A DNA stretch of 64,000 nt, taken from the NCBI RefSeq assembly GCF_013394165.1, contig NZ_CP041330.1, positions 2,038,501-2,102,500 of the forward strand, written 5' to 3'. Positions 41,594 to 45,244 of this stretch are shown here, one piece after another (the stretch's first letter is position 1; the number at the start of each line of letters is the position of its first letter). This DNA is from Pseudoalteromonas sp. Scap06 (lineage in GTDB: Bacteria > Pseudomonadota > Gammaproteobacteria > Enterobacterales > Alteromonadaceae). Made by a program: the position numbers and the translations under genes. The notes beneath the pieces are model-generated. The model saw only the letters and a program-made list of their open reading frames with translations, had not been told where the DNA came from and did no database searches.

Positions 41594-43849
41594 TTAGCTG
41601 GTCAATGCTAAACCACCCGATAAGTTAAAAACGCGGTTATAACCAAGTTCAATTAAGTTTGCCGCCGCAATTTTTGAACGATTTCCACTGCGACACACCA
41701 ATATGTATTGATTGTTTTTATCTAGTTGCCCTTGGGTGAGTGCATAGGCCATTCGGCTTAAAGGAATATTTAAAGTTTTAGCCTCAGGCACATTAAGCAA
41801 TCCACTGATATTGTTAGCGCCATGCTCATAAGGCTCTCGGGTATCAATTAAATATACACTGTTATGTGAAAGCATTTCCTTCGCTTGATTAAAACTAAGC
41901 TGCGAAGTTTCGACTTTAGGCTTTGCATTAACATAACCACAAAGCGAATTTGCTAATGTGTGTTGTTGTGAGTCTGCTTGTTGTTTTTGCATGGCAAATT
42001 CAGTATGGCTGATATCACCTTCAATAAGCGCTTTTAATAAAGGTGTTTGCTGCTTTTGCACAGCCCAATTCATGGCAAAACACTGTTGATAATCATGCCC
42101 AGAGCACACCACACTTTGCGGATTAAGCTCTGCAGTTAACTTAGTCAAAGAGTCTGCCATCTGCATCGCATCTCCCCCATCAAGTACTGTATTACCAAGC
42201 CCCGCAGGTAAAATTAAATCACCACAAAAACAGTACTGTACATCGCCGTTATTAGCCTTTAATAAATAACTCACGCTATCTTGGCTGTGTCCAGGCGTCG
42301 CTAGCTTTTCAAGTACTTGTTCGGTTAGTTGCAATTGTTCACAATTAACAGGCCAGCCTAATTGATCAACTTCACCAGCAACTAAATTTGTTTTGAGTGC
42401 GCTGCGCATTAAATCAAGAGCACAGTGACGATCTTGGTGCTCATGCGTGTTTAAAATAGCAGTAATAGTTAAATTTTGTGTATTCACTATTTTTTCAAAT
42501 CGAGGGATCAGTTCAATAATTGGGTCAATAATAATTGCCTGTTGATCATCAGCTACATACAACCAACTGCAAGCACCTTGGTGTCTAAATTGGGTAAGCC
42601 CCAAGGCACATACTTCTTGTGCTACTAAGCTACTATCAGAAATAACCAAACAATTTGCTTGTAACACTGTTTTAAGTGCGCGAATTTGTTCACATGCATA
42701 GTCTATTTGCGCCATAGTGGCAGCAGGCCCAAACGATAAACGAATCGCATTTTCACTTTGCCACTGTGACACTCCCATCGCATCAAGTACAAAGCTTTGA
42801 GTTGCGCCCGTACTACAGGCTGAGCCACCGCTGACTCTAATACCTGCAGCGTCAAATAAATCAATAACTTCTTTACTGGTTAAATCATTAACTGCAAAGT
42901 TTAGTGTTGTGGGCACTGAGCAGGCAAAATCATGATTAAAGGTAATACTTCCAAAGGTGTCAACTAAAGCGCTATGCAGTTTATCGCGATACAAATTAAG
43001 TACATCAGCTGATTTAAAAGTATCGTCTTGCTTATCAAGCAGCAAACTAAACAGCTTATTAAGCCCAGCAATACCGGGCAGGTTTTCTGTACCTGAACGC
43101 ATGCCACTTTCTTGGCCTCCACCAGCTATAAACGGCGTGTATGGGCTTCCTTTACGAATATACAATAATCCGATGCCTTTAGGTGCATAGAGCTTATGTC
43201 CTGAAAATGGCGCATAATCAATCGTGGTTTTGCTTAGGTTGAGTTGTTGTTTACCCAGTGCCTGCACACAGTCAACCATCCAAGTCACATCGTTATTACG
43301 ACTGCGGATCACCTTTTCTATAGCACTTAAATCTTGGTATACACCGGTTTCATTATTAACAGCCATAGTACAAATCATCAGGGCATTATCAATATGCTGA
43401 GCAATAAAGTCTAAGTCTAAAATACCGTCTCGGTTAACCGGAATAGCAATAATTTCAGCATTAATTTCAAGCACGGCATTCCAATGTTTTAATGTATTAG
43501 GCACCGCTTTATGCTCAGTTGCTCCATACAATAAAACCGGTTTAGATTTTGTGTGCTGTTTGGCATTAATTAAGGTTGATACGATAGCAGTTTGAATACC
43601 TTCGGTCGCACCTGAGGTAAATAATATATCGCCCTGTTGCGCACCAATCACGCTGCGCGCTTTTTGCCTCGTTTGTTCTAATAAGTGTTTGGCTTGAATA
43701 CCGGTTATATGGGGACTTGAGGGATTACCAAAACAAATTTGCATCGCATGGCACACCACCTCTGCAATACAAGGCAATACAGGTGTGGTCGCATTTGCAT
43801 CAAGATAAACTTGGCTGTTAGGTTCATCTGGCAATAAAAACTCTGACAT
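41594..43849 (-). CDS. Three-domain sulfur protein: cysteine desulfurase, MBL-fold hydrolase, rhodanese
   Basis: 751 residues. Residues 10-395 form a NifS/IscS-type class V aminotransferase: PLP Lys K219 (FSGHKLYAPKG) and active Cys C345 (GGSACSTG). Residues 420-600 are an MBL fold with THEHQDRH (H469, H471, D473, H475), H521, D544 and H585. That is the di-metal or persulfide-dioxygenase (ETHE1) pattern. Residues 655-751 are a rhodanese with C719 in CRSGNRS. All catalytic residues appear intact. A plausible reading is desulfuration of cysteine with the persulfide handed on to, or detoxified by, the attached MBL/rhodanese modules. It is monocistronic, and no Isc/Suf scaffold genes are near. 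Confidence 0.88.
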   Translation of the reverse strand: MSEFLLPDEPNSQVYLDANATTPVLPCIAEVVCHAMQICFGNPSSPHITGIQAKHLLEQTRQKARSVIGAQQGDILFTSGATEGIQTAIVSTLINAKQHTKSKPVLLYGATEHKAVPNTLKHWNAVLEINAEIIAIPVNRDGILDLDFIAQHIDNALMICTMAVNNETGVYQDLSAIEKVIRSRNNDVTWMVDCVQALGKQQLNLSKTTIDYAPFSGHKLYAPKGIGLLYIRKGSPYTPFIAGGGQESGMRSGTENLPGIAGLNKLFSLLLDKQDDTFKSADVLNLYRDKLHSALVDTFGSITFNHDFACSVPTTLNFAVNDLTSKEVIDLFDAAGIRVSGGSACSTGATQSFVLDAMGVSQWQSENAIRLSFGPAATMAQIDYACEQIRALKTVLQANCLVISDSSLVAQEVCALGLTQFRHQGACSWLYVADDQQAIIIDPIIELIPRFEKIVNTQNLTITAILNTHEHQDRHCALDLMRSALKTNLVAGEVDQLGWPVNCEQLQLTEQVLEKLATPGHSQDSVSYLLKANNGDVQYCFCGDLILPAGLGNTVLDGGDAMQMADSLTKLTAELNPQSVVCSGHDYQQCFAMNWAVQKQQTPLLKALIEGDISHTEFAMQKQQADSQQHTLANSLCGYVNAKPKVETSQLSFNQAKEMLSHNSVYLIDTREPYEHGANNISGLLNVPEAKTLNIPLSRMAYALTQGQLDKNNQYILVCRSGNRSKIAAANLIELGYNRVFNLSGGLALTS

Positions 43850-43956
43850 TAAAAACGCACCTTATTACTAAAAAATATATCTTATTCCCAATAGTACATA
43901 GTTTTAATAGGAATGAGTAATAATCTTTAGTAATTAAAGTGCGTTTACTATACTTT

Positions 43957-45033
43957 TTAGTTACCGAGCTCTTCTGCGAGCTCTTCATGTGTGGATGACC
44001 ACGCCTTAATCAGCGCTTTTACCAATGATGCTAATGGAATAGCAAAAAATACGCCCCAAAAACCCCACAGCCCACCAAAAAATAGTACGGCGACAATAAT
44101 AAACACCGGGTTTAAATCAACCGCTTCAGAGAACAATAAAGGGACTAACACATTGCCATCAAGCGCTTGAATAATGCCGTAAATAATTAAAATGGTCCAA
44201 AACTGGGTTTCTAAACCAAACTGAAACAGCGCCACCGCCGCCACAGGTATAGTCACCAGCGCAGCACCAACAAATGGAATGAGCACCGAAAAGCCAACTA
44301 ACACACCAAGCAGCGCCGCATAACGTAAATCCAATACCGTAAAGGCAATAAAGGACACCGAGCCAATAATTAAAATTTCGAATACTTTACCTCGAATATA
44401 ATTCATTATTTGCTGATTCATTTCATGCCACACTTGCAAAATTAAGCGTCGTTGGCGCGGGATCAGTTTAGCAATGCTGGCACTGAGCTCTACTTTGTCT
44501 TTAAGCATAAAAAATACCAGTAGCGGTACTAAAATAAGATAAATTAACCACGCAACAGCATCTTTTAATGAATTGAGCGATGCCGACAGCACCACTTGGC
44601 CAAATTCGAGCACTTTGGTTTCTACCGTTACCACAATAGACTGTACTTGCTCTGCACTAATAAGGCTGGGGTATTTAGCTGGTAGGTCGAGTAAAAACGA
44701 TTTACCTTGCTCTACCATATGCGGGGTTTCTTGCACTAAGTTACTACTTTGCTGCCAAAGTACCGGGCCTATAACCAATATTAAGGTGAGCATAATGCCA
44801 ATAAATATCAACATAACTATGCTAGTGGCAGTAAAACGCTTTAAGCCAACTCGCTCTAGGTGAACCACGGGCCAATCTAATAAATAAGCAATGATCAGTG
44901 CCACTAACACAGGCACAATTAATGGGCCAAAAAAGTACAACATGGCAACCAGTGCCAATAACAAAAAAAGTAAAGTAACTGAATTAGGATCAGAAAACTT
45001 TTTTTCATACCATGCTTTTACATATTCAAACAC
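43957..45033 (-). CDS. perM: AI-2E/PerM family membrane transporter
   Basis: 358 residues with about 7 to 8 helices, the pattern of the PerM/YfgO (AI-2E exporter-like) family. Key areas are GPLIVPVLVALIIAYLLDWPV and LIPFVGAALVTIPVA. It precedes bepA and arsC by context, an order shared with E. coli (yfgO-yfgC-yfgD). The substrate is not known for most members. It overlaps tusA-like by 8 bp. Confidence 0.88.
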   Translation of the reverse strand: MFEYVKAWYEKKFSDPNSVTLLFLLLALVAMLYFFGPLIVPVLVALIIAYLLDWPVVHLERVGLKRFTATSIVMLIFIGIMLTLILVIGPVLWQQSSNLVQETPHMVEQGKSFLLDLPAKYPSLISAEQVQSIVVTVETKVLEFGQVVLSASLNSLKDAVAWLIYLILVPLLVFFMLKDKVELSASIAKLIPRQRRLILQVWHEMNQQIMNYIRGKVFEILIIGSVSFIAFTVLDLRYAALLGVLVGFSVLIPFVGAALVTIPVAAVALFQFGLETQFWTILIIYGIIQALDGNVLVPLLFSEAVDLNPVFIIVAVLFFGGLWGFWGVFFAIPLASLVKALIKAWSSTHEELAEELGN

Positions 45034-45244
45034 GCAACGGCTCCACTAATAACAACGCTTGTTGTTTATTTAACTTGTAATAATACATTTTTTTTTGCAA
45101 ATATCGTTCAATATCATCTGTATTTTGCTCGCTTGAGATATTAAAGGTAATTGTTTGATTTAACGATATTGCCTCACGCAACCCTAATTTAAACTGAATA
45201 AATTGCTGAGGGCATTTATAAGCGCGCAAATCTAGCTCTAGCAT
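45026..45244 (-). CDS. TusA-like small sulfur-transfer protein
   Basis: 72 residues. C11 in AYKCPQQFIQFK is the conserved sulfur-carrying CP motif of the TusA/SirA family. Size (about 80 residues) and fold fit. It overlaps the start of the downstream perM gene by 8 bp. A role in persulfide relay or tRNA thiolation is inferred from the family. Confidence 0.75.
   Translation of the reverse strand: MLELDLRAYKCPQQFIQFKLGLREAISLNQTITFNISSEQNTDDIERYLQKKMYYYKLNKQQALLLVEPLRV

Follow-up and report, generated by a model that had tools for sequence, protein, structure and literature searches.

The window analyzed here, a stretch of 64,000 nucleotides from the 4.13-Mb genome of Pseudoalteromonas sp. Scap06, encodes a protein in which a cysteine desulfurase (CD), a metallo-beta-lactamase (MBL) domain of the persulfide dioxygenase (PDO) type and a rhodanese follow one another. 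With moderate confidence we regard this protein as a single-chain relay, made under sulfur limitation, in which sulfur would pass from the CD to the rhodanese; such a desulfurase-to-rhodanese relay is favored over a persulfide-oxidizing enzyme. This reading rests on the complete CD and rhodanese active sites found in every set examined and on a predicted CysB-type operator. The CD, with PLP on K219, would desulfurate cysteine or a related cysteine compound and hold the sulfur as C345-SSH; from there it would pass to C719 of the rhodanese and on to an acceptor, which could be a small molecule or a protein. We infer the transfer, the substrate and the acceptor.

The fusion is encoded by one uninterrupted open reading frame of 751 residues at positions 41594..43849 on the minus strand; the plus strand over this interval is full of stops. 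The original prediction of a 751-residue frame is thus borne out, and all the ten residues that it had named are present at their expected positions. Its three domain assignments also agree with the Pfam profile search, which finds, in this order along the chain, Aminotran_5 (residues 14-384), Lactamase_B (425-491; 31.4 bits, cut-off 22.7) and Rhodanese (654-747). The CD domain (42659..43813, minus strand, residues ~13-397; Pfam and structure comparison) contains the PLP lysine K219, H113, the catalytic C345 and R370. The PDO/ETHE1-type MBL domain (41930..42622, minus strand, residues ~410-640; profile and structure matches) keeps H469, H521 and D544, and the rhodanese domain (41597..41902, minus strand, residues ~650-751; Pfam and structure match) has the active-site loop C719-RSGNRS. 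In the structure comparison the matches listed for the full-length model were only CDs and their kin, so the MBL and rhodanese domains were folded separately. An artifact of merged genes, which had been considered as a possible explanation, is rejected because full-length homologs occur in many separately sequenced genomes. As to whether the fusion is common and already characterized, the first holds; no characterization was found in the literature searched, where no title or abstract opening dealt with a CD-MBL-rhodanese fusion, a search with most subscription journals outside its scope, so that absence is unproven.

The residues H113, K219, C345 and R370 of the CD and C719, R720 and R724 of the rhodanese are invariant in 117/117 full-length homologs, in 120/120 of the Massilia-type proteins described below and in all the 121 distinct proteins of the locus set, which derives from 149 loci after 5 unmatched by the open reading frame pattern were dropped and 23 identical proteins were removed from the remaining 144. 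The CD has the hallmarks of group I enzymes, namely the PLP lysine in SGHK, the catalytic cysteine in a GSAC loop and fold type I. It shares with NifS and IscS (1ecx, 1p3w) about 33% identity, the fold, the PLP lysine, the catalytic cysteine and the substrate arginine; it differs from them in remaining under the NCBIfam equivalog cut-offs (283.8 of 530.75 bits for NifS, 227 of 643.2 for IscS) and in having three extra invariant cysteines, C160, C194 and C386. These are found in 121/121 locus proteins, where C194 adjoins the DCVQ aspartate, and in 120, 119 and 120, respectively, of the 120 Massilia-type proteins. Among 19 pairs of sequences, saturated dS values excluded, the CD shows the lowest dN/dS (0.02-0.09), while values for the rhodanese range from 0.02 to 0.22. 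Since at least two other, separate CD-type matches are found in the genome (frames of 411 and 412 aa; five matches counted, three listed), the suggested role outside Fe-S assembly is plausible.

A homolog search identified 3186 homologs among 7997 candidates scored; the best 120 of these are all at least 49% identical to the window protein, 117/120 are longer than 700 aa, and the closest named ones among the matches listed belong to Pseudoalteromonas. The fusion is present in 43/394 genomes of an order-level sample (E <=1e-95), in 1/369 of a class sample, this one being the window's own, and in 10/398 of a phylum sample, own genome included. In a scan of named genomes (best 80 loci) it occurs in Pseudoalteromonas, Shewanella, Thalassotalea, Thalassomonas, Colwellia, Rheinheimera, Psychrobium, Paraglaciecola and unclassified Gammaproteobacteria. 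The phylum sample has a single match beyond the order, and its sequence is the same as that of a protein of Massilia forsythiae; a search with the latter yields at least 120 proteins, own record included, of which the named ones listed are from Massilia and Herbaspirillum. In the protein of these genera, desulfurase and rhodanese flank an MBL remnant that is shrunken and metal-free: HxHxDH is found in 0/120, and the middle segment has a median of 194.5 residues, compared with 252 in one canonical relative.

The second support for the relay is found upstream of the gene, where a 20-base motif, WTATTaCTTTTaGTTATAag, recurs across unrelated gene neighborhoods (51 non-redundant upstream regions). 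In the window it corresponds, by matrix match, to the candidate CysB-type operator ATATATTTTTTAGTAATAAG (43861..43880, minus strand), predicted at 31 to 12 bases upstream of the ATG, which is an unusual position for an activator to bind. The motif has a log-likelihood of 249, compared with at most 70.3 in five shuffles that preserved base composition alone and were given 12 starts each, as opposed to 60 for the real set; neither dead or eroded loci nor similar upstream regions entered the training. Of the 120 fusion upstream regions 23 score below 12 bits, even though the matrix was trained on some of them. When a matrix trained on fusion promoters only is applied with 277 other upstream regions as the background, cysJ reaches or exceeds their 95th percentile in 9/12 genomes, and cysK does so in 11/12; as the 12 genomes are related, rank tests over them overstate the evidence. 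None of 1000 column-permuted matrices reaches the observed mean (4/24 cys upstream regions, near-identical ones from Shewanella, were dropped for this control), and none of 300 resampled sequence sets is as good. The cysD upstream regions are weak: 3/13 exceed 8.5 bits, the 95th percentile of a clean null, and 0/13 reach that of the first null, which was biased by pattern-selected loci and by the fusion's own operator and was replaced for this reason; cysD does not head its operon in every case. Plain-pattern counts are uninformative, with 50 matches and 43 in the backward control for the window genome and 43 and 46 for a Shewanella-type genome (G040), so that the operator argument rests on the position-weight matrix. 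In G040 the core pattern is matched perfectly at two places only, in the fusion promoter and ahead of a cysK-like gene, and matches with two mismatches precede cysG-cysD in this genome and cysJ in that of the window; these gene names are our own assignments, made from sequence. Upstream of the fusion in G040, two operator copies (0 and 1 mismatch) are found 20 bases apart (G040:C1:591556-591593).

When the fusion-promoter matrix is applied to 59 upstream regions of E. coli, cysP ranks first, cysJ about 6th, cysD 8th and cysK 11th; zipA and cysZ (9.6 bits) outscore the last three, with cysP ahead. Permuted matrices perform as well in 3/1000 cases, and the rank test gives p 2e-4, with a null from which two divergent neighbors sharing a cys site were left out and in which 39 low scorers were set to 0. 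CysB activates such cys promoters in E. coli and Salmonella, according to PMC3773388 and PMC11329422. The same papers describe proteobacteria without a distinct CysB motif (PMC3773388) and a very weak CysB consensus (PMC11329422); for this reason it is only as our inference that CysB is named as the acting factor. A conserved operator common to cysJ and cysK, weak at cysD and detectable at E. coli CysB promoters points to a place for the fusion in the sulfur-starvation regulon, and this regulatory evidence favors sulfur limitation instead of the role in sulfide homeostasis that had been put forward.

The operator is part of an inverted repeat (43853..43946, minus strand) lying between the stop of the gene for an AI-2E family transporter and the ATG of the fusion. 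RNA folding predicts here a hairpin of -32.8 kcal/mol (z -5.26, 0/200 shuffles as good), whose 3' arm spans the operator and the likely ribosome-binding site AAGGTG. In this region AAACGCA is kept in 12/12 close relatives and GGTGCGTTT in 11/12; the structure could represent paired operator half-sites or a hairpin that blocks translation. It was rejected as a repeated element, the window genome having no second copy of the inverted repeat, and an Rfam search gave five matches, none at gathering score.

The TusA-like gene that had been pointed out about 1.2 kb upstream of the fusion is a real open reading frame (45026..45244, minus strand, 72 aa, with CPQQ instead of CPxP), whose relevance to the fusion is judged incidental. 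It adjoins the AI-2E transporter gene (43957..45033, minus strand; Pfam PF01594), and this pairing is independent of the fusion: in 15 AI-2E loci, from 16 genomes where the fusion is elsewhere or was not found, a TusA-like frame lies just upstream in 12 and is missing in three (L156, L157 and L164). TusA was consequently rejected as a partner, its proximity being no specific evidence of a link with the fusion. Among 91 fusion loci a TusA-like gene is nearby in 38 and an AI-2E gene in 38, and over 51 loci no neighbor is constant across genera, as would be expected of an operon partner. The TusA-like protein beside AI-2E has no CPxP in the window and in 4/4 congeneric loci (CPQQ, CPQL, CPAL); in other genera CPxP is found in 7/8 loci where the protein is present, and the second proline seems to have been lost in the window's genus.

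The middle domain poses a different question. Its proposed PDO/ETHE1 ancestry is supported by profile matches, the best one being to BpPRF (E 1.4e-40, positions 21-353 of 357, spanning nearly all of MBL and rhodanese), which is also the best Foldseek match. BpPRF (Burkholderia/Paraburkholderia phytofirmans, PDB 5ve3-5ve5) likewise carries an MBL and, after it, one catalytic rhodanese on the same chain; unlike the fusion, it is a two-domain protein, and the extra N-terminal CD domain sets the architecture described here apart from BpPRF-type PDO-rhodanese fusions. The two domains of the model are positioned relative to each other differently from those of BpPRF (rmsd ~16 A over both), which may be a limit of the model. 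Thus, the suggested kinship with PDO-rhodanese fusions stands, the CstB-type structure being a more distant match than BpPRF: Staphylococcus aureus 3r2u, recorded as a metallo-beta-lactamase family protein and which we take to be CstB, also combines a PDO-type MBL with a rhodanese, but its match is weaker (1.1e-27), it is longer (466 aa) and it has no CD. Kinship with type II PDOs was rejected in favor of type I enzymes, since the MBL profile match to 4ysk (1.2e-15) is no better than that to glyoxalase II (3e-15). Among NCBIfam models glyoxalase II is the best one for this domain, at 78.3 bits under a cut-off of 200.8, and the motif is HxHxDR instead of the dinuclear-site HxHxDH of GloB; the sulfur-dioxygenase model Blh follows behind it with 26.3 of 625 bits, an order that counts against the PDO reading.

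Comparison with AcPDO, based on motif alignment and spacing, shows what has changed in the active site. The iron ligands of AcPDO, H57, H113 and D130 (PMC6060420), correspond to H469, H521 and D544, so that the iron triad is present; D61, H171 and C224 map to D473, H585 and C637, and equivalents of H59 and Y173 are also shared with AcPDO and other ETHE1-type PDOs (MxPDO 4ysb, human ETHE1 4chl). Conversely, H62 is replaced by R474, R139 by N553 and D141 by V555, and neither the D61-H62 pair of THxHADH nor the glutathione-site pair is complete. The metal motif therefore reads H469-E-H471-Q-D473-R474, with arginine in place of the last histidine of HxHxDH; of the metal site originally proposed, H469, H471 and D473 stand within it, while H475 falls one residue past the motif and is not conserved (histidine in only 5/117 homologs longer than 700 aa, with arginine at position 474 in 96/117). 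According to PMC6060420, activity is undetectable in AcPDO D61A, H62A and H171A and amounts to 0.4% in R139A and 1.5% in D141A; R139 belongs to the glutathione site, and its counterpart is R142 in BpPRF. The ancestral domain could have turned persulfide sulfur into sulfite, which can be reused by the sulfite reductase CysJI, itself apparently controlled in the same way as the fusion. In the window's lineage the iron ligands are kept and the catalytic second-sphere histidine and the glutathione-site Arg/Asp pair are lost, and because of these losses its middle domain is probably no longer a glutathione-persulfide dioxygenase.

Across relatives the middle domain is unstable in evolution, while the catalytic residues of CD and rhodanese are invariant in every set examined. 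Among the 121 distinct locus proteins it is canonical in 59, altered in 52 and dead or eroded in 10. Canonical domains retain H62 in 59/59 and R139 in 58/59, with D141 kept in 7 and replaced by asparagine in 52. In the window-type domains (41/121) the ligands and the equivalents of H171 and C224 are retained in 41/41, H62 has become R in 39 and K in 2, R139 has become N in 38/41, and several residues occur in place of D141 (A 15, S 12, V 3, L 3, H 2 of 41). A Thalassotalea type (11/121) has lost D61 and H62 and kept R139 and D141; three full-length domains of the Pseudoalteromonas rubra type are dead, without ligands, and seven are eroded, with motifs gone and proteins shortened to 615-682 aa. 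C637 is kept in 111/111 proteins with ligands and lost in 3/3 dead and 6/7 eroded ones. Two other cysteines, C540 and C590, do not vary within the window-type clade (41/41 each) or the three dead full-length proteins, and are mostly other residues in canonical relatives. On a CD-domain tree, built by a quick method, the five MBL states need 6 changes, the minimum possible being 4; canonical members form two groups, one with some Pseudoalteromonas, and the others fall into one clade of Thalassotalea, one of Pseudoalteromonas and a Massilia row with a long branch and an unsure placement. In the 19-pair set dN/dS of full-length MBL domains is 0.06-0.17, above that of the CD, and that of eroded remnants 0.24-0.38. 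The domain of the window's clade, with values of 0.06-0.16 and the residues kept in 41/41, is not simply dead.

These data bear on what the middle domain contributes. The fold and PDO ancestry, the iron ligands, the further AcPDO equivalents and the purifying selection on the MBL would suit an enzyme active in three steps, namely the formation, channeling and oxidation of persulfide, as the original prediction had it with a "perhaps". For the window protein we consider this quite unlikely: three positions are replaced at which each single alanine change leaves AcPDO with at most 1.5% activity (PMC6060420), and 10/121 locus proteins have a dead or eroded domain and 120/120 Massilia-type proteins one without its motif, the other two sites being intact in all. 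Such an enzyme is more likely for the 59 canonical relatives, Shewanella, Colwellia and Rheinheimera among them, and the dioxygenase may still be active in Shewanella-type members. An altered site that is conserved and not drifting, as the constancy of the ligands, R474, N553 and C637 in the window-type set indicates, could otherwise belong to a domain re-specialized to bind iron and act on a persulfide of its own chain (C345-SSH or C719-SSH) or on a non-glutathione thiol; the glutathione-site pair would have gone while the ligands stayed. This is unlikely, given the variable D141 position and the complete loss of the MBL domain in close relatives, and we are no more inclined to accept its extended form, a sulfur-starvation enzyme with a channel from the CD over the iron site to the rhodanese, own-chain persulfide in place of glutathione persulfide and a conserved HxHx[DE]R as signature.

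In a further reading the rhodanese would draw sulfane sulfur from thiosulfate, with sulfite set free, and the persulfide would be used or redistributed by the CD. The MBL-rhodanese half is closest to BpPRF, which the title of the BpPRF paper reportedly assigns to sulfur assimilation, and the predicted CysB-type operator would fit as well; however, the invariant CD active site is left unexplained, and we hold such thiosulfate assimilation to be very improbable. The CD-to-rhodanese relay, which we prefer, has its own difficulty, since a cysteine-consuming enzyme made under sulfur shortage is a paradox that counts against it if cysteine itself is the substrate. The paradox would be resolved by some substrate other than free cysteine, or by the use of thiosulfate through the rhodanese.

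A cysteine desulfurase under a regulator of sulfur assimilation, as the operator suggests, would be unexpected. The names under which these proteins are found in databases, "aminotransferase class V-fold PLP-dependent enzyme" and "cysteine desulfurase", conceal both the fusion architecture and the states of its domains. Indeed, the family offers a natural series of canonical, altered, dead and eroded middle domains, which lets one ask what an oxidizing domain adds to a desulfurase-rhodanese enzyme.
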